Below are positions 19,000-41,289 of a DNA stretch of 64,000 nucleotides, piece after piece. Every line of letters starts with the position of its first letter. Within the stretch, counting starts at the first letter, position 1. The notes beneath the pieces were generated by a model. It was given only the letters and a program-made list of their open reading frames with translations. It had not been told where the DNA came from and did no database searches. A program made the position numbers and the translations under genes. This stretch comes from Pedobacter yulinensis. Lineage in GTDB: Bacteria; Bacteroidota; Bacteroidia; Sphingobacteriales; Sphingobacteriaceae. The DNA lies in the NCBI RefSeq assembly GCF_003029735.1, contig NZ_KZ686268.1, positions 310,001-374,000 on the forward strand, read 5' to 3'.

Positions 19000-19824
19000 T
19001 TAGTTCCCCAGTGTGAAGGAAATGGCAATATTGTAACTTACACGTACCGGTTTACCGTTTTGGATTCCAGGAATCCATTTTCTGCTCGCTTTAAGTACCC
19101 GCTTTGCTTCTTCATCCGTACCGTAGCCAAGGCCTTTAACGACTTTGATATCGGTCAGTGAACCGTCTTTTTCCACAACGAAAGACATGTTTACTTTTCC
19201 CTGGATGTTTTGCTCAGCTGCCTGAGGCGGATATTTGATCGCATCAGCGAGGTATTTATAGAAGGCAGGCAGGCCTCCCGGATATTCCGGGTTTTTCTCG
19301 ATTGATGAGAAAGCGTATACCGTATTGTCTTCAACAACCGCAGCCTGTTTAGGGCCTTCGCCGACAGGAACATTGATGTTCACATCAGCAGTCGGGTCGC
19401 CGGCAATGGTCTTCTGACCGGGGTCGGCTTTTTTCAAATCCTCTACGGTAGGTGGCTCCTCGTCGCGCACCTGCTCATCGGGTTTAACGATGGGCGGCGG
19501 GAATTTAACCTGGTCTGTTCTTGGAGGCGGCGGCTCCACCGGTGGCGGCGGAGGTGTCTCCGGGTTTACGGGTGGTGGCGGCGCCACAACCACTTCTGTT
19601 TGCTTCAGCACTTCATCGTCTTCTGGTAACGAACCTTTGATCAGTGAATAGATCTTGGGAGCGAAAAACAGCAGGACAAATGCGGCTGAAGCGAAGAGCA
19701 GGGATTTGGTCGTGTTGGAAGCATTCGATTTACGCAGCTCATAGGCGCCGTAACTCTTGTTCTTCGTTGCAAACACAACATCCAGCCACTCTCTCTTGAA
19801 AATATCTAACTTCGAACCAAACAT
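19000..19824 (-). CDS. tonB: Energy transducer TonB
   Basis: A 274-residue TonB-family protein. A cytoplasmic N-terminus with YGAYELRKSN is followed by one membrane helix (about 43-63), a proline-rich periplasmic linker with several PPPPP runs, and a C-terminal TonB domain (YPGGLPAFYKYLADAIKYP onward, ending in VSYNIAISFTLGN). It transmits the ExbB/ExbD proton-motive force to outer-membrane receptors. It follows exbD by 21 bases. The PGGLPAFYKYL segment is shared with two other TonB-like proteins in the window (38635-40371 and 40807-41238). Confidence 0.93.
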   Translation of the reverse strand: MFGSKLDIFKREWLDVVFATKNKSYGAYELRKSNASNTTKSLLFASAAFVLLFFAPKIYSLIKGSLPEDDEVLKQTEVVVAPPPPVNPETPPPPPVEPPPPRTDQVKFPPPIVKPDEQVRDEEPPTVEDLKKADPGQKTIAGDPTADVNINVPVGEGPKQAAVVEDNTVYAFSSIEKNPEYPGGLPAFYKYLADAIKYPPQAAEQNIQGKVNMSFVVEKDGSLTDIKVVKGLGYGTDEEAKRVLKASRKWIPGIQNGKPVRVSYNIAISFTLGN

Positions 19825-33988: not shown

Positions 33989-33996
33989 TACTTTTG
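33989..33996 (+). promoter_or_regulatory. -7 element of the succinate dehydrogenase operon
   Basis: TACTTTTG, a full TAnnTTTG match, 27 bases before the sdhC ATG. It overlaps the upstream in-frame Met codon at 33994, which argues for the ATG at 34024 as the real start. No TTTG is found at the usual 19 bases upstream. Confidence 0.62.
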
Positions 33997-34023
33997 CAAA
34001 TAAAAGAAATTAAAGTACATCTA

Positions 34024-34704
34024 ATGAGTAGTTTCGGAAAAGCTTTTTCCTCGTCTATAGGAAAAAAAGTCGTCATGGGCATCACAGGCCTGTTCCTGAT
34101 CTTGTTTTTGATCGTTCATTGTTTTCTCAATTCGCTTATTTTCCTGAACGACGGCGGAGAGACATTTAACCTCGGCGCTGAGTTCATGGCAGGTAACTGG
34201 GCCATCCGCGCTGGCGAGATTGTGCTGTTTATCGGGCTGATCCTGCACATTGTACAAAGTGCCAGGCTAACTTACGATAACCAGAAGGCAAGACCGGTAA
34301 AGTATGCCGCTTACAATGGCAGTGCGAACAGCAAATGGTACTCGCGGTCTATGGGCCTGTTGGGAACTCTGCTGCTGATCTTCCTCGTTGTTCACCTTTC
34401 GAACTTCTGGGTGGTTTCTCGTTTTACAGGCATTCCTACCCATGATGCGAACAACCGTGAAAACCTTTATGCCGTTATGGTTGAAAGCTTCCAGAACATC
34501 TGGATCGTAGTCCTGTATGTATTGTCTATGATTTCTCTGTGTTACCACCTGCTGCACGGATTTGCTTCTGCATTTCAAACCATGGGCTGGAACCACAAGA
34601 AATATGCTCCGGTCATTAAATCGGTTGGCGTGTGGTATTCGATCATCATTTCGGTATTGTTTGCAGCCATGCCGATTGCAATCTACACAGGCCTCATCAA
34701 CTAA
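34024..34704 (+). CDS. sdhC: Succinate dehydrogenase/fumarate reductase cytochrome b subunit
   Basis: A 226-residue membrane anchor with five predicted helices, of the single-subunit type that binds heme b (related to Wolinella FrdC/Bacillus SdhC). It starts [22 protein letters not shown]; conserved histidines lie in [31 protein letters not shown] and [15 protein letters not shown]. It transfers electrons between the iron-sulfur subunit and menaquinone. First gene of the sdhCAB operon. Confidence 0.93.
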
Positions 34705-34733
34705 TTTTTGAACGTATAATTCTCAATAACAGA

Positions 34734-36713
34734 ATGGCAGATATTAATTCAAACATCCCCGAGGGAGAATTGACCCAGAAATGGACCAAATACCGTTCTT
34801 CGGTTGCCCTGGTTAACCCCGCAAATAAACGGAGCATCGAGGTAATCGTGGTTGGCTCGGGTCTTGCCGGTGCTTCGGCCGCGGCAACCCTGGCAGAAAT
34901 GGGATATAAAGTTAAATGTTTTTGCTTCCAGGATTCGCCCCGACGGGCGCACTCGATTGCGGCTCAGGGCGGTATCAACGCGGCAAAAAACTATCAGAAT
35001 GACGGCGACAGCACCTACCGGCTGTTTTACGATACCATTAAAGGCGGTGATTACCGCGCACGCGAAGCAAACGTTTACCGTCTTGCAGAGGTCAGCGCCA
35101 ACATCATCGACCAATGCGTAGCCCAGGGCGTTCCGCTGGCGCGCGAGTATGGCGGACTGCTTGACAACCGTTCTTTTGGCGGAACGCAGGTACAGCGTAC
35201 TTTTTACGCCGCCGGTCAGACCGGGCAGCAATTGCTTCTGGGCGCATACAGCGCGCTTGAACGGCAGATTGGAATGGGGAAAGTAGAGATGTACACCCGC
35301 CACGAGATGCTTGAGGTGGTGAAGATTGATGGCAAAGCACGTGGCATTATTGCCCGCAACCTGATTACGGGAGAGCTCGAGCGCCATTTCGGCCATGCGG
35401 TTTTGCTGGCATCAGGCGGTTATGGCAACGTGTTTTACTTGTCTACCAACGCCATGGGAAGCAACGTGACTGCAGCATGGAAAGCCCACAGACAAGGTGC
35501 CTTCTTTGCTAACCCATGTTTTACGCAAATCCACCCAACCTGTATCCCGGTTTCGGGCGACCACCAGAGCAAGCTCACGCTGATGTCTGAATCGCTCCGC
35601 AACGACGGTCGCATCTGGGTGCCAAAAAAGAAAGACGATAACAGAAAACCTACAGACATTCCGGAAGACGAACGGGACTACTACCTGGAGCGCCGCTATC
35701 CGGCATTCGGCAACCTGGTTCCGCGCGACGTCGCTTCACGTGCAGCGAAAGAGCGTTGCGATGCGGGTTACGGTGTAGGCGCTTCGAAACTCGCGGTTTA
35801 CCTCGACTTTGCTGCAAATACCGAACGTTATGGCCGCATCGAAGCCACCAAACATGGCATTCAGAACGCAGACAAAGCCACTTATATGCGGCTCGGCAGG
35901 GAAGTAGTAAAAGAAAAGTACGGTAACTTGTTCGACATGTATGCGCAGATTACCGGCGAAGATCCTTACGAAACACCAATGCGTATTTACCCGGCCGTGC
36001 ATTATACCATGGGCGGCCTGTGGGTAGACTACAACCTGATGACAACCGTACCTGGCCTTTATGCACTCGGCGAAGCTAATTTCTCCGATCATGGAGCCAA
36101 CCGGCTCGGGGCATCTGCATTGATGCAGGGCCTGGCAGACGGCTACTTCGTTATTCCTTACACCATCGGCGCTTACCTTTCAAAAGAGATATCGACCAAG
36201 GCAATCCCGACAGACCACCCCGCTTTCGTGGAAGCTGAAAACAGTGTAAAAGAAACGCTTGAACGGTTTTTGACCATTAAAGGATCAAGATCTGTCGATC
36301 ATTTCCACAAGGCACTTGGAAAAATCATGTGGGACAAGTGCGGCATGGCGCGTAACGAACAGGGTTTGACAGAAGCCATCGCCGAGATCAGAGCGCTGCG
36401 GGAGGAGTTCTGGCGCGATGTGCGTGTTCCCGGTTCAATGGACGAATATAATCCCGAACTGGAAAAAGCCGGACGCGTTGCCGACTTCCTGGAACTGGGC
36501 GAGTTGATGTGCATTGATGCGCTGAACCGCAAAGAAAGCTGTGGAGGCCACTTCCGCGAAGAATACCAGACTGAAGAAGGCGAAGCACTACGTGACGATG
36601 AAAATTTTGCTTATGCAGCCGCCTGGGAATACCTGGAAGGCGTTCATTTCAATCTGCACAAAGAAGAATTGAAATTCGAAAACATTAAGGTAGCACAAAG
36701 AAGTTATAAATAA
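34734..36713 (+). CDS. sdhA: Succinate dehydrogenase/fumarate reductase flavoprotein subunit
   Basis: A 659-residue catalytic subunit, starting at ATG 34734 ([11 protein letters not shown]). The frame extends back to 34632, but that part overlaps sdh[20 protein letters not shown] binds the FAD ADP moiety; the histidine in [15 protein letters not shown] carries the covalent FAD. The catalytic region includes [16 protein letters not shown] and [15 protein letters not shown]. It catalyses succinate-fumarate interconversion in the TCA cycle; direction follows the quinone used. Confidence 0.95.
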
Positions 36714-36758
36714 ACGGCGGGGCCCCCGGGCCATCCTGCCGAACTCAATACAATTCAA

Positions 36759-37529
36759 ATGAGTACAGGAAATATGAATCTGACGCTGAAAGTTTGGCGC
36801 CAGAAAAACAGCAAGTCAGCCGGCAAACTCGTCGACTATCAGGTTTCAGATATCTCGCCCGACATGTCTTTTCTGGAAATGTTCGATGTTTTGAACGAGC
36901 AGCTGATCAATAAGGGAGAAGAACCGATTGTGTTTGATCATGACTGTCGCGAAGGCATCTGCGGTATGTGTTCCATGTTCATTAACGGTCGCCCTCACGG
37001 CCCCAAACAAGGAATAACGACCTGCCAGCTGCACATGCGTTCATTTAAAGATGGCGATACCATCGTTGTCGAACCATGGCGTGCGGCGGCTTTTCCGGTT
37101 ATTAAAGACCTGGCCACAGATCGTTCAAGCTTTGACCGGATCATCGCTGCCGGCGGTTTTATCTCTGTAAATACCGGCAATGCCCAGGATGCGAACGCCC
37201 TGCCAATTCCGAAAAGCCAGGCAGATGCCGCATTCGAAGCTGCAGCGTGTATTGCCTGCGGTGCCTGTGTGGCAACGTGTAAAAATGCTTCGGCCATGTT
37301 ATTCGTATCGGCTAAAATTTCGCAACTCGCCTTGCTGCCGCAGGGACAGCCGGAGCGCTACCGCCGCGTACAGAGCATGGTTGCCCAGATGGACGCCGAA
37401 GGTTTCGGAAATTGCACCAACACCCGGGCATGCGAAGCTGAATGCCCGAAAGGGATCTCGCTGGAAAATATTGCACGGATGAACCGCGATTATTATGCAG
37501 CCAAATTCGTGTCTGAAGAAGAAGTTTAA
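36759..37529 (+). CDS. sdhB: Succinate dehydrogenase/fumarate reductase iron-sulfur subunit
   Basis: A 256-residue subunit with three clusters: 2Fe-2S (C63, C68, C71, C89), and two further clusters from C164, C167, C170, C174 and C219, C225, C229. It relays electrons from the FAD subunit to the b-type cytochrome. The first ATG (MSTGN) is used; MNLTLK five codons later is also possible. It ends the operon before a strong terminator. Confidence 0.95.
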
Positions 37530-37950: not shown

Positions 37951-38625
37951 TTAGTGCGCCGGCGCTGCCTTTTTCTGGCCGGTCTCTGTGGTGTTTTTTT
38001 CCGCTTTTTTTGTGGTGACCAGGATCACGCCGTTCACACCTTTTGCTCCGTACATGCTGGTTGATGCCGTATCCTTAAGTACGGTAATTGACTTGATCTG
38101 GTCAGGAGCAATTGCCTTCATGGCATCTGCACCGTCTATGCTGACTGCCTCGACCCCATCTACCACGATCAGTGGTTTCTGAACTGCCGGACCACCCTGC
38201 AGTCCATTCATGACACGAATGCTGGCAGCTGCTGGTGCATGTTCGTCCTTGTCTTTTCGCAGCAGGTTGTTCAGCGCATCCATGCGGACCTGGAGGTCAC
38301 GTGCTGCGTCTGAGTCTTGTCCGCTGCCAGTGCGCACCACAATAGCCCCTCTAGTGGCCGCCCGTCCAAACAAGGCGATTGCCGATTGGCTATGCAGTAC
38401 CGACACATCTCTGATGTCGCCCGGTGGCATTTCCATAGTCCAGGATCTTTTCTGTTCTGGCGTAAGGATAACTCCGTTCAGCACAATCAGTGCACTGTCG
38501 GTCCCTGTGCGGGATTTTATAAAAGTCAGGCCTTTCGCAGCCGGCTGTTCCTGAGCAGCGACGCTGAGCCCACCCGCAGATAAGCAGGCGATAAGCAATA
38601 TTCTTAAATAAGTACTTTTCATCAT
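37951..38625 (-). CDS. Small secreted protein with two TonB-receptor plug-like repeats
   Basis: A 224-residue protein with a signal peptide (to about residue 24). Two units resemble the end of the SusC/TonB-receptor plug: residues about 44-100 (ALIVLNGVIL, then DIRDVSVLHSQSAIALFGRA, GAIVVRT) and about 148-208 (KPLIVVDGVEA, then QIKSITVLKDTASTSMYGA, NGVILVTTKK). No barrel follows. It lies ten bases after the M56-TonB-plug gene, whose C-terminus carries a third copy of the same unit. Possible roles are self-assembly with the fused sensor or competition with receptor plugs; function unknown. Confidence 0.78.
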   Translation of the reverse strand: MMKSTYLRILLIACLSAGGLSVAAQEQPAAKGLTFIKSRTGTDSALIVLNGVILTPEQKRSWTMEMPPGDIRDVSVLHSQSAIALFGRAATRGAIVVRTGSGQDSDAARDLQVRMDALNNLLRKDKDEHAPAAASIRVMNGLQGGPAVQKPLIVVDGVEAVSIDGADAMKAIAPDQIKSITVLKDTASTSMYGAKGVNGVILVTTKKAEKNTTETGQKKAAPAH

Positions 38626-38634
38626 TTTTAATTT

Positions 38635-40371
38635 TTAGCGGACAATATTCTTGTCTGCGGGTTTGTTTTGTTGATCTTTTGTTGTGACAATAATGACCCC
38701 GTTGGCGGCGCGCTGCCCATACAGCGTCGTTGCAGACTGACTTTTCAACACATTGATAGCGGCAATGCGTTCAGGCTGCACTGAACCGGAAAATTCAGAC
38801 CAGCTTCCGTCAAGCGGCTTTCCATCCACAATGACAAGGGGTGCGTTTTCCGCTTTGCCCGAAGTTGCAACACCACGGACGATGACCGGCGGTTTGCGTT
38901 CACTGGCGGGCACACTTGCGACCAGTCCGCTAATTCCTGCCGGGACTGGTGCGGCCCGGGCTGGCTCTTCGGATGCATCAGGTGCAACTTGATCGAGTTT
39001 AAACGATAAGTTGATATTGTACGTAACTGCTACAGGGCTGCCGTGCTGAAGGGCAGGCTGCCAGGGCTGTGAACTGCCCACAACGCGGATGGCTTCCTCG
39101 TCGCAGCCATAACCAATGCCATCAAGGACACGGATATTTCCGAGCCGGCCATCGCGGCCTACTGTAAATGCCAAATGAACACGGCCACTTGCGTTGGCCC
39201 TGACCGCCTGCGCCGGATACCTGAGGTTGGCCGCCAAAAATTTATAGAAAGCGGGCATACCCCCCGGAAACAAGGCATGTTCCTGGTCTCCGGTCGCAGA
39301 CTCCGGTTCCGCAGGTGTGTTTTCCCGTTCAGACAGCTGCAGCCGGGCCGGCCGGGTGTGTGTGCTTTCGGTTTCCGGAACTGCGATCACAGGAACAGGC
39401 TCGTCTGCCAATTCGGGTGCGGCCGCGGCGTCACCATCCAATGAGATCAATGCAGACGCTGCCGGAGCAGTCAGACTGCCTGCAAGTTGCTGCACGGCCT
39501 GAACAGGCTCACTCAGGACAATATCGCTGGTAAGTTGCCGGATGTCATCGTTTTTACGAATCGAGGCCGAAGACAGGATCATCAGTAAAACGAGAACCGG
39601 CAGCATGAGCCCGTACTTCAAGATAGCCGCGCGCCTGGAGCGCTCACGGGTTAGCATAAAAATTCGCTTTTTGACCATCGATCCGGCAAAAAAAGGACTG
39701 ATCAAATTACTTTGCTCCAGGCCGAAGGCCCGGCTCAGCAAGAGCATGGAATAGGCATATTTATCGCCCCGGTAGTTTGCTGCCGCCTCGTCTGCCAGGT
39801 ATTCGTGGGTGGCCTTGACCGCAGCAATGAGCAGGTAACTCACAGGATTAAACCAGGTAAAGATCCGGATCGCTTCGAAGAATATAATGTCTGCGCTGTG
39901 AAACTGACGAATGTGCACGTCTTCATGCAATTGGATGGTATCGCGCTCTGGGAGCTGTACACCAACCACTTTCCGGTTGAAAAACGAAAACGCGCCCTGG
40001 CCGGCCGGTTCACGAAATAGGTGTTTGACCCTGAATAACCTTGCCACGAAAAAAACAATGCCGACAATAACGCCTGTGGCATACAGAACGGCTATTACAG
40101 CGCCCCAATCAGTTTCTGCGCGTGCCGGGCCGCTTACCTGCATGACCATTGCATTCAGGTCATCTACACCTGCATATAACCGCCGGCTAACCGGCTGCGA
40201 ACTTAACCATTCGATGCGCATGAACGGGAGGCCTATTGAAAACGCGCCAGCGCCAAGCAGGTACAGGCGGTTTAGCTTGAACCAGGTTTCTTTGTGCAAC
40301 AGGAGCCGGTAAAATGTGTAAAAGACCACCAGGTAGAGATTTACCTGCAGCATGTAATGGGCCCAGTTCAT
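38635..40371 (-). CDS. BlaR1-like M56 metallopeptidase fused to a TonB domain and a plug-like tail
   Basis: A 578-residue membrane protein. The N-terminal half is an M56/BlaR1 domain with helices near 8-25, 36-52 and 90-112 and the zinc motif HEDVH (149-153), then FFEAIRIFTWFNP with the third ligand and HEYLADEAA (189-197). A last helix lies at about 252-270. The periplasmic part has a low-complexity linker, a TonB C-terminal domain (FPGGMPAFYKFLAANLRYP to YNINLSFKLD, about 370-470) and a plug-like unit (APLVIVDGKPL, IAAINVLKSQSATTLYG, GVIIVTTKD). BlaR1 sensors cleave BlaI-type repressors after a signal. Its ATG overlaps the blaI stop by four bases. Confidence 0.88.
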   Translation of the reverse strand: MNWAHYMLQVNLYLVVFYTFYRLLLHKETWFKLNRLYLLGAGAFSIGLPFMRIEWLSSQPVSRRLYAGVDDLNAMVMQVSGPARAETDWGAVIAVLYATGVIVGIVFFVARLFRVKHLFREPAGQGAFSFFNRKVVGVQLPERDTIQLHEDVHIRQFHSADIIFFEAIRIFTWFNPVSYLLIAAVKATHEYLADEAAANYRGDKYAYSMLLLSRAFGLEQSNLISPFFAGSMVKKRIFMLTRERSRRAAILKYGLMLPVLVLLMILSSASIRKNDDIRQLTSDIVLSEPVQAVQQLAGSLTAPAASALISLDGDAAAAPELADEPVPVIAVPETESTHTRPARLQLSERENTPAEPESATGDQEHALFPGGMPAFYKFLAANLRYPAQAVRANASGRVHLAFTVGRDGRLGNIRVLDGIGYGCDEEAIRVVGSSQPWQPALQHGSPVAVTYNINLSFKLDQVAPDASEEPARAAPVPAGISGLVASVPASERKPPVIVRGVATSGKAENAPLVIVDGKPLDGSWSEFSGSVQPERIAAINVLKSQSATTLYGQRAANGVIIVTTKDQQNKPADKNIVR

Positions 40372-40745
40372 CTTGGTCTGTTTTTGACTTTATTGATCAT
40401 TTTCATTATCTCATCGATATCGCTCAGATCGAGTTTCTCTTCTTTCACAAAGAAGGAGAACATACTTTCAACCGAATTTTCAAAGTAGTTGCCGAGTAGT
40501 TTCTCGGTCGCATGGCGTTTGTAGTCTTCCCTGCTGATCAGGGGATAATACTGGTGCGCTTTGCCGAACGCTTCATGGCCGATGAAACCTTTTACCTCGA
40601 GAATCCTGATAATGGTCGAAACGGTGTTGTAAGCGGGCTTCGGTTCAGGCAGCATGTCGATGACTTCCTTTACAAATGCTTTTTCCAGCTGCCACAAAAC
40701 CTGCATGATCTGTTCTTCTGCTCTCGTAAGATCTTTTATCTCCAT
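40368..40745 (-). CDS. blaI: BlaI/MecI-family transcriptional repressor
   Basis: A 125-residue repressor from the ATG at 40745 (MEIKDLTRAEEQIM). The longer open frame to 40829 runs through the promoter and operator and overlaps the upstream gene, so it is rejected. The winged-helix region includes EEQIMQVLWQLEKAFVKEV and PAYNTVSTIIRILEVKGFI, followed by FGKAHQYYPLISREDYK; the C-terminus is the dimerisation region. It is expected to be cleaved by the adjacent M56 protein. Operator-like palindromes occur in its own promoter and in that of the upstream gene. Confidence 0.92.
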   Translation of the reverse strand: MEIKDLTRAEEQIMQVLWQLEKAFVKEVIDMLPEPKPAYNTVSTIIRILEVKGFIGHEAFGKAHQYYPLISREDYKRHATEKLLGNYFENSVESMFSFFVKEEKLDLSDIDEIMKMINKVKNRPR

Positions 40746-40763
40746 AATATTTTTATAAGCACT

Positions 40764-40794
40764 TAAACTTACAACTAATCTGTTAGTTCTGCAA
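40764..40794 (-). promoter_or_regulatory. blaI promoter with BlaI-type operator
   Basis: On the minus strand TTG (complement of 40792-40794) is followed after 20 bases by TAAGTTTA (complement of 40764-40771, one base from TAnnTTTG). Between them lies the near-palindrome AACTAATCTGTTAGTT (40773-40788), one mismatch from the perfect operators at 41242 and 41267. Repressor bound here would block both promoter elements. Confidence 0.75.
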
Positions 40795-40806: not shown

Positions 40807-41238
40807 CTACTTGCGGGCGTTGAAAGCAATTGGCATCTGAAAGCTCACCGGGACGTTTTCACCATTTATTTTTCCTGGTTTCCAGCGCGGGCTGGCAGAC
40901 ACAACCCGCACAGCTTCCGCATCCAGCGCCCTGGTTGCAGGACGGATTACGGTCACGTCCCGGATGTTGCCCGACTCATCCACAACAAAGCCAAGCAGGA
41001 CTTTACCACCTGTTCCGGCCTTCTTTTCTGCATCCGGATACCTGATACCCTTAGCGAGGTATTGGTACAAAGCCGGCATGCCGCCCGGAAATTCCGGCTT
41101 TTGATCAACTTGGTCGTACCCAAGGGGCCCGGCATTTTTCTGCGCATGCGCGCGGCCCATTGATACGCTTAAGATCGTAATCAGCAGACCAGTGGCTACG
41201 CAAATCTGGCGAAGCCTTTGATGAAGTGTGGTTTTCAT
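40807..41238 (-). CDS. Secreted TonB C-terminal-domain protein of the BlaI unit
   Basis: A 143-residue protein with a long signal peptide (to about residue 32, ending AHA), so unlike true TonB it probably lacks a permanent membrane anchor. The mature part is a bare TonB C-terminal domain: FPGGMPALYQYLAKGIRYP, GGKVLLGFVVDESGNIRDV, VVSASPRWKPGKINGENVP. It shares this module with the M56 fusion downstream. Two BlaI-type palindromes sit in its promoter. Role unknown; a periplasmic ligand for the sensor is possible. Confidence 0.85.
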   Translation of the reverse strand: MKTTLHQRLRQICVATGLLITILSVSMGRAHAQKNAGPLGYDQVDQKPEFPGGMPALYQYLAKGIRYPDAEKKAGTGGKVLLGFVVDESGNIRDVTVIRPATRALDAEAVRVVSASPRWKPGKINGENVPVSFQMPIAFNARK

Positions 41239-41241
41239 AAT

Positions 41242-41257
41242 AACTAATTTATTAGTT
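41242..41257. promoter_or_regulatory. BlaI-type operator 1
   Basis: Perfect inverted repeat AACTAAT-TT-ATTAGTT, 16 bp, just downstream of the -7 element and 4 bases before the ATG of the TonB-domain gene. Centre-to-centre spacing to operator 2 is 25 bp. Confidence 0.85.
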
Positions 41258-41289
41258 AAACATACAAACTAATTTATTAGTTTCAAAAA
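41257..41289 (-). promoter_or_regulatory. Promoter of the secreted TonB-domain gene, containing BlaI-type operator 2
   Basis: On the minus strand TTTTTG (complement of 41284-41289) is followed after 19 bases by TATGTTTA (complement of 41257-41264), a close match to TTTG-N19-TAnnTTTG. The spacer holds a second perfect AACTAAT-TT-ATTAGTT palindrome (41267-41282), identical to operator 1. This arrangement is what a BlaI-repressed promoter should look like. Confidence 0.85.

Follow-up and report, generated by a model that had tools for sequence, protein, structure and literature searches.

The gene at positions 38635..40371 (minus strand, ATG start) of the window, by which we mean the whole 64,000-nucleotide stretch of Pedobacter yulinensis DNA that was analysed, encodes a 578-residue protein in which an M56/BlaR1-type membrane protease, a TonB C-terminal domain and the core of a SusC-type receptor plug are joined in a single polypeptide; the open reading frame, Pfam, AlphaFold and Foldseek concur on this triple fusion. 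Together with its neighbours the gene suggests a module of the BlaR1/BlaI type in which parts of the TonB import machinery take the place of the penicillin-binding sensor, and in which BlaI cleavage driven by engagement of these parts would control an envelope regulon, a reading that we hold to be moderately probable.

The protease domain occupies residues 1–272 (39556..40371, minus strand; assigned from a profile match to Staphylococcus aureus BlaR1 and from Foldseek) and contains the HEDVH zinc motif at residues 149–153 (39913..39927, minus strand), with E190, the third ligand, and D194 downstream, all marked by their invariance in homologues. The TonB C-terminal domain spans residues 382–459 (38995..39228, minus strand; Pfam E 8e-18, Foldseek) and the plug core residues 509–567 (38671..38847, minus strand; Pfam Plug E 6.6e-8, pLDDT and Foldseek). 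The sequence-only reading had listed the HEDVH motif, a TonB unit and plug-like strings in this order, and the translation contains every one of them (FPGGMPAFYKFL in the TonB C-terminal domain, then VIVDGKPL, SATTLYG and GVIIVTTK), with three Pfam matches that exceed their curated cut-offs: Peptidase_M56 at 142–240 (37.6 bits against 31), TonB_C at 382–459 (65.1 against 24.6) and Plug at 479–559 (33.5 against 23.9). The SusC/RagA signature TIGR04057 of NCBIfam is matched at 536–565 (46.7 bits, cut-off 46.2), and a phmmer search of the PDB pairs the tail with SusC/RagA structures at a best E value of about 1e-8. The match covers positions 31–107 of the Pfam Plug model, i.e. only its second part, and hence we speak of a plug core; by the same measure the protein lacks what would be the N-terminal portion of the plug in a receptor, and the AlphaFold model of the 578 residues has no 22-strand barrel. 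Neither Pfam nor Foldseek finds a penicillin-binding or β-lactamase domain in the sensor, which has the TonB and plug units instead, and a motif search of the 578 residues returns no TonB box. By analogy with the topology of BlaR1, the TonB domain would be periplasmic.

AlphaFold was run on the complete chain with an alignment of 28 sequences, and the C-terminal part was also modelled alone. In the full model the TonB domain has a pLDDT of about 93 and the plug core mostly 83–86 (mostly 83–91 over the AlphaFold runs), with low-confidence linkers at residues 298–360 and 461–494. AlphaFold leaves the placement of TonB domain and plug relative to each other, and with it any docking of the two, undefined, at a pTM of 0.50 and with a disordered linker of pLDDT below 50. 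Foldseek searches with the full model return, in this order, BlaR1 cryo-EM structures (8exq, E 3.9e-4), TonB C-terminal domains and SusC plugs. The C-terminal model superposes on the FoxA-bound TonB C-terminal domain (6i97_D) with an r.m.s.d. of 1.6 Å over 77 columns, and the plug core on SusC (8a9y) with 1.9 Å over 57 columns at 46% identity and on RagA (6sml) with 1.7 Å over 56 columns. The plug fold that had been proposed for the tail is thus what structure prediction returns, and the tail recurs in homologues rather than being a random C terminus.

A profile of the M56 domain run against the PDB retrieves S. aureus BlaR1 (E 1.2e-10) with the HExxH motif, the E...D pair, the Tyr and the Arg all aligned. 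Alignments of 23–28 homologues leave H149, E150, H153, E190, D194, Y207 and R236 invariant, a set that corresponds to the residues to which catalytic and supporting roles are ascribed in BlaR1 (PMC9834060). The start of the sensor gene overlaps by 4 bp a gene for a BlaI/MecI-type repressor of 125 residues (40368..40745, minus strand, likely ATG at 40745; Pfam Penicillinase_R 2.9e-33; MecI 1sd6, E 1e-11), and blaI adjoins the M56-TonB-plug gene at the loci inspected. The repressor aligns with S. aureus MecI and BlaI across the Phe of the cleavage region, S. aureus BlaI being cleaved after Asn101. Where BlaI is cut, a Phe in the P1' position is described as almost invariant (PMC9834060). Protease and repressor therefore look competent for action of the BlaR1/BlaI kind, in which the signal would be relayed, as had been proposed, by BlaI cleavage. 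Because the TonB and plug units stand in place of a penicillin-binding domain, the sensor is best regarded as an M56-family relative that probably works like BlaR1, with BlaI as its predicted substrate, and not as a BlaR1 β-lactam receptor.

Two further genes flank this pair, giving the order TonB_C protein, blaI, sensor, double plug-core protein. The first encodes a secreted, soluble TonB_C protein of 143 residues (40807..41238, minus strand; Pfam TonB_C 1.9e-17, Sec-type N terminus judged by eye), and the last a secreted protein of 224 residues (37951..38625, minus strand; Pfam Plug 8.3e-13 in two stretches, PDB matches to RagA and SusC) with two plug cores after a Sec-type leader. The co-occurrence of the sensor architecture with a separate plug gene, which the sequence-only reading had offered as a check, is seen elsewhere: all four genes are kept in order in Pedobacter sp. 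SYP-B3415 (locus L045), a separate plug gene is likewise present at L156, and at L051 and L023, where the sensor has a TonB_C domain without a plug, a secreted plug unit is encoded next to it. Separate secreted TonB_C genes recur as well, and secreted TonB_C or plug partners adjoin 17 of 104 M56 genes that bear a TonB or plug unit compared with 1 of 39 that bear neither (Fisher p 0.025). The sensor domain of BlaR1 is homologous to the kind of protein that BlaR1 controls, and the secreted partners beside TonB- or plug-bearing M56 genes recall this arrangement. The operon also adjoins genes resembling succinate dehydrogenase (sdhCAB, window positions 33994–37529), and sdhB also lies beside the sensor operon in two Pedobacter genomes (L048, L053).

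The exact palindrome AACTAATTTATTAGTT stands next to the start of the TonB_C gene as predicted BlaI operator 1 (41242..41257, unstranded, like the other two); the same sequence is repeated as predicted operator 2 (41267..41282), followed on the minus strand by the −7-like element TATGTTTA, and predicted operator 3 (40773..40788) lies in the gap that separates the TonB_C gene from blaI, with TAAGTTTA following on the minus strand. Many operators directly precede an element TAnnTTT(G/A), which resembles the −7 box consensus of Bacteroidota. Of 153 regions upstream of blaI genes, 85 contain the palindrome AACTA-N6-TAGTT, where shuffled sequences give 0.15. By class, the loci that have it number 43 of 47 for M56-TonB-plug, 29 of 46 for M56-TonB, 3 of 13 for M56-plug and 8 of 41 for M56 with neither unit, although the p value of 2e-12 for this association is not to be taken literally, since the motif was found on the same sequences and relatedness inflates the counts. 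Across the 4.3-Mb genome there are five copies of the strict form AACTAA-N4-TTAGTT, three at the sensor operon and two elsewhere, against none for the reversed control. The looser AACTA-N6-TAGTT is not enriched genome-wide over the reversed control (7 sites versus 22), and for this reason only the strict form was used to define targets; its one-mismatch form likewise shows no genome-wide excess (12 sites versus 19 in the control). From comparative genomics we infer that BlaI probably binds AACTAA-N4-TTAGTT at the promoter of its own operon and at those of envelope genes.

The two remote strict sites are at C1:723731 and C4:193295. One of them lies 31 bp before a gene for a CarboxypepD_reg protein that has relatives with an outer-membrane barrel, and the other 18 bp before a gene for a CarboxypepD_reg protein of 412 residues. 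A one-mismatch site is found ahead of the gene for a DUF3887 hydrolase (L233), and a further such site ahead of another blaI-M56 pair (L229). The scan was extended to 13 genomes of the genus, P. yulinensis included, and each of the 51 sites examined, a subset of those found, is no more than 160 bp away from a start codon. Recurrent targets among the 13 genomes are blaI (9), a secreted TPR protein (9), the OMP_b-brl_3/CarboxypepD_reg protein (7), the 412-residue protein (7) and a DUF4397 lipoprotein (3). The TPR protein, of about 384 residues and with no assigned function, has the operator 10–25 bp upstream of its start in nine genomes (L237, L241, L244, L253, L257, L264, L276, L284 and L287). 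In two further genera (G014, G025) the operator also precedes homologues at 29–62% protein identity, and more distant genera often have the autoregulatory site alone or none; sites inside genes in G018 and G022, outside the genus, look like chance. No β-lactamase or penicillin-binding protein is among the operator targets examined. Envelope proteins would make up the predicted regulon; several of them have N termini of the receptor type, and no gene for resistance was noticed among the targets. Several BlaI proteins of the genome may share the operator, so that the targets are not assignable to the BlaI of the window alone.

The plug fusion proves no exception in the survey of homologues: it is a recurrent design in Bacteroidota. 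The census comprises 169 distinct M56 open reading frames, collected for the most part through their resemblance to the window protein, and is therefore biased towards its relatives. TonB_C and plug occur together in 54 of them, a plug without TonB_C in 13, TonB_C without a plug in 55, and neither unit in 47. Carriers of the full architecture include Pedobacter, Mucilaginibacter, Arcicella, Emticicia, Dyadobacter, Lacihabitans and others, and dozens of genomes repeat the order of M56, one or two TonB_C domains and one or two plugs. The query protein has a match in 101 of 101 genomes of the family searched, a figure that includes matches to TonB alone; a class-wide Pfam census of M56 was uninformative, with few or no PF05569 matches in many of the sampled families, as the model misses divergent members. 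P. yulinensis itself has six M56 genes, and one of the others (L003) also has a plug-like unit. Pfam assigns Plug to 19, TonB_C to 26 and CarboxypepD_reg-like domains to 5 of the 28 aligned members. In distant genera the plug forms a predicted folded core in which YG is invariant and G/K nearly so.

A FastTree phylogeny, which has long branches, forces at least 11 changes for the TonB-plus-plug class, and the plug and TonB units changed often along it. A single origin of the M56-TonB-plug fusion was considered and finds no support on this long-branched tree, where many changes are required; the frequent gains and losses of domains point instead to a modular ectodomain. Several loci illustrate the range of forms. 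At L001 (G000:C4:196034-199729) the M56 ectodomain is built of some ten FNSPEEQAKWKKLGEDMERK-like repeats in tandem, with no TonB or plug unit. The sensor at L066 (2342-4399, plus strand) combines in one chain a TonB_C domain, two plug cores and a stretch resembling CarboxypepD_reg, which makes it similar to the half of a SusC receptor that faces the periplasm. A 287-residue gene at L048 (8068-8931, minus strand) resembles the C-terminal ectodomain of an M56 protein, with two TonB_C domains and no protease, and in a Microscillaceae MAG (L086, 5890-7218, plus strand) a stand-alone secreted protein has one plug core besides a pair of TonB_C domains, again with no protease. In the P. yulinensis genome a BlaI-M56 pair at L002 (G000:C2:970894-974721) has directly behind it a receptor-like gene of the CarboxypepD_reg/plug type, about 842 residues long, which is another link of M56 proteins to outer-membrane receptors.

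TonB-box-like motifs are present in 18 of 167 M56 ectodomains, where about 2 would be expected from shuffled sequences, and they match the SusC boxes of the P. yulinensis genome, whose SusC receptors bear TonB boxes of the LDDVVVVGYG type. In the mechanism that we propose, BlaI would occupy AACTAA-N4-TTAGTT in the promoters both of the operon that encodes it and of a small envelope regulon comprising the OMP β-barrel/CarboxypepD_reg protein, the second CarboxypepD_reg protein and the DUF3887 hydrolase, joined in relatives by the secreted TPR protein and the DUF4397 lipoprotein. The TonB and plug units would engage periplasmic partners, most likely TonB boxes or the plug or TonB parts of outer-membrane receptors, and a change in this engagement would alter the membrane protease, lead to BlaI cleavage and derepress the regulon. 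The soluble TonB_C and plug proteins could compete for the partners of the sensor and reset it, much as β-lactamase removes the ligand of BlaR1. Extended to Bacteroidota as a whole, i.e. to a surveillance system in which BlaR1-type proteases read TonB and receptor engagement, cleave BlaI and adjust an outer-membrane regulon under feedback from soluble TonB_C and plug proteins, the proposal becomes a tentative one that we would not presume to be correct.

A sensor of the outer membrane or of the TonB machinery that acts through BlaI cleavage would be the most economical reading, with its signal a matter of prediction. That the sensor might follow TonB status instead of an antibiotic had been suggested from the sequence, and predicted envelope targets with no β-lactamase or penicillin-binding protein among those examined favour a putative envelope or TonB-state sensor over an antibiotic sensor. 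It is very improbable that the protein senses β-lactams and that its TonB and plug units serve only as spacers; the BlaR1 fold and the BlaI partner would be expected of such a protein, but its sensor half contains no penicillin-binding or β-lactamase domain and the examined targets of its operator include neither kind of gene. Sensing of general envelope damage or cell-wall material, with TonB_C and plug as generic binders of, for example, peptidoglycan or misfolded outer-membrane proteins, is unlikely yet deserves more weight, as the regulon is envelope-wide and not specific to uptake, and as a BlaI-family gene rises about 3-fold in a Riemerella anatipestifer LPS-gene mutant (PMC5294843), which is a lead only. 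Generic binding poorly explains why a TonB C-terminal domain and a plug core are combined, and why some homologues add a TonB box or CarboxypepD_reg.

The canonical sequence and fold of the TonB domain could also be taken to mean that the protein is an energy transducer which, like TonB with ExbB and ExbD, drives receptors, with proteolysis secondary. The single anchor helix by which TonB contacts ExbB is, however, absent from the AlphaFold model and its Foldseek matches, the N terminus being the multi-helix M56 domain; a separate TonB-like gene of ordinary length lies at window positions 19000-19824, and blaI is adjacent at the loci inspected, so that we give this role little credence. Very improbable, too, is that the tail is a non-functional remnant of recombination with a SusC gene: the frequent changes of plug and TonB units on the tree, at least 11 for the TonB-plus-plug class, would fit such an origin, but the core keeps its YG and, nearly always, its G/K residues in distant genera and separate plug genes occur within the same operons. 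The reading that we prefer remains the one in which TonB and plug units report on envelope partners to a BlaR1-type protease.

BlaR1/BlaI pairs are usually annotated as regulators of β-lactam resistance, and many Bacteroidota genomes have several M56-BlaI pairs whose sensing part has no penicillin-binding domain. If such systems do monitor TonB import or the outer membrane, a phylum centred on SusC/SusD import would possess a proteolytic envelope-sensing pathway, and 'BlaR1' labels in its genomes would be no sign of resistance; the operator and the brevity of the list of targets open the idea to direct tests. The single domains are already labelled by databases. In the freely accessible literature searched there appears to be no description of the whole system, of its operator or of its envelope regulon; nothing joining BlaR1, TonB and plug was found there, papers naming BlaR1 and TonB doing so incidentally. 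In Porphyromonas gingivalis a BlaI gene beside an M56 gene changes with hemin availability (PMC10470040), again a lead only.

Compared with BlaR1/BlaI and MecR1/MecI of Staphylococcus (MEROPS M56), the window system has the same gluzincin membrane protease with matching catalytic residues, a co-encoded BlaI/MecI-type repressor with the cleavage-region Phe aligned, and a C-terminal sensor past the last membrane helix. It differs in that this sensor is a TonB_C domain and a plug core and not a penicillin-binding domain, and in its predicted operator AACTAA-N4-TTAGTT and predicted envelope regulon in place of β-lactamase or PBP2a. M56-TonB_C proteins of Bacteroidota share the protease, the BlaI partner and at least one TonB_C domain, and 29 of 46 of their loci the operator, but they are without the plug core or have the plug in a neighbouring gene (L051, L023). 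With SusC/RagA TonB-dependent transporters the sensor shares the plug core, at 45–46% identity and an r.m.s.d. of 1.7–2 Å, whereas it is without the barrel and the N-terminal part of the plug and is joined to an inner-membrane protease, and no transport role is therefore expected of it. The TonB C-terminal domain, finally, has the fold and sequence of PF03544, but here it comes without the ExbB-contacting anchor helix of TonB and forms part of a protease sensor.
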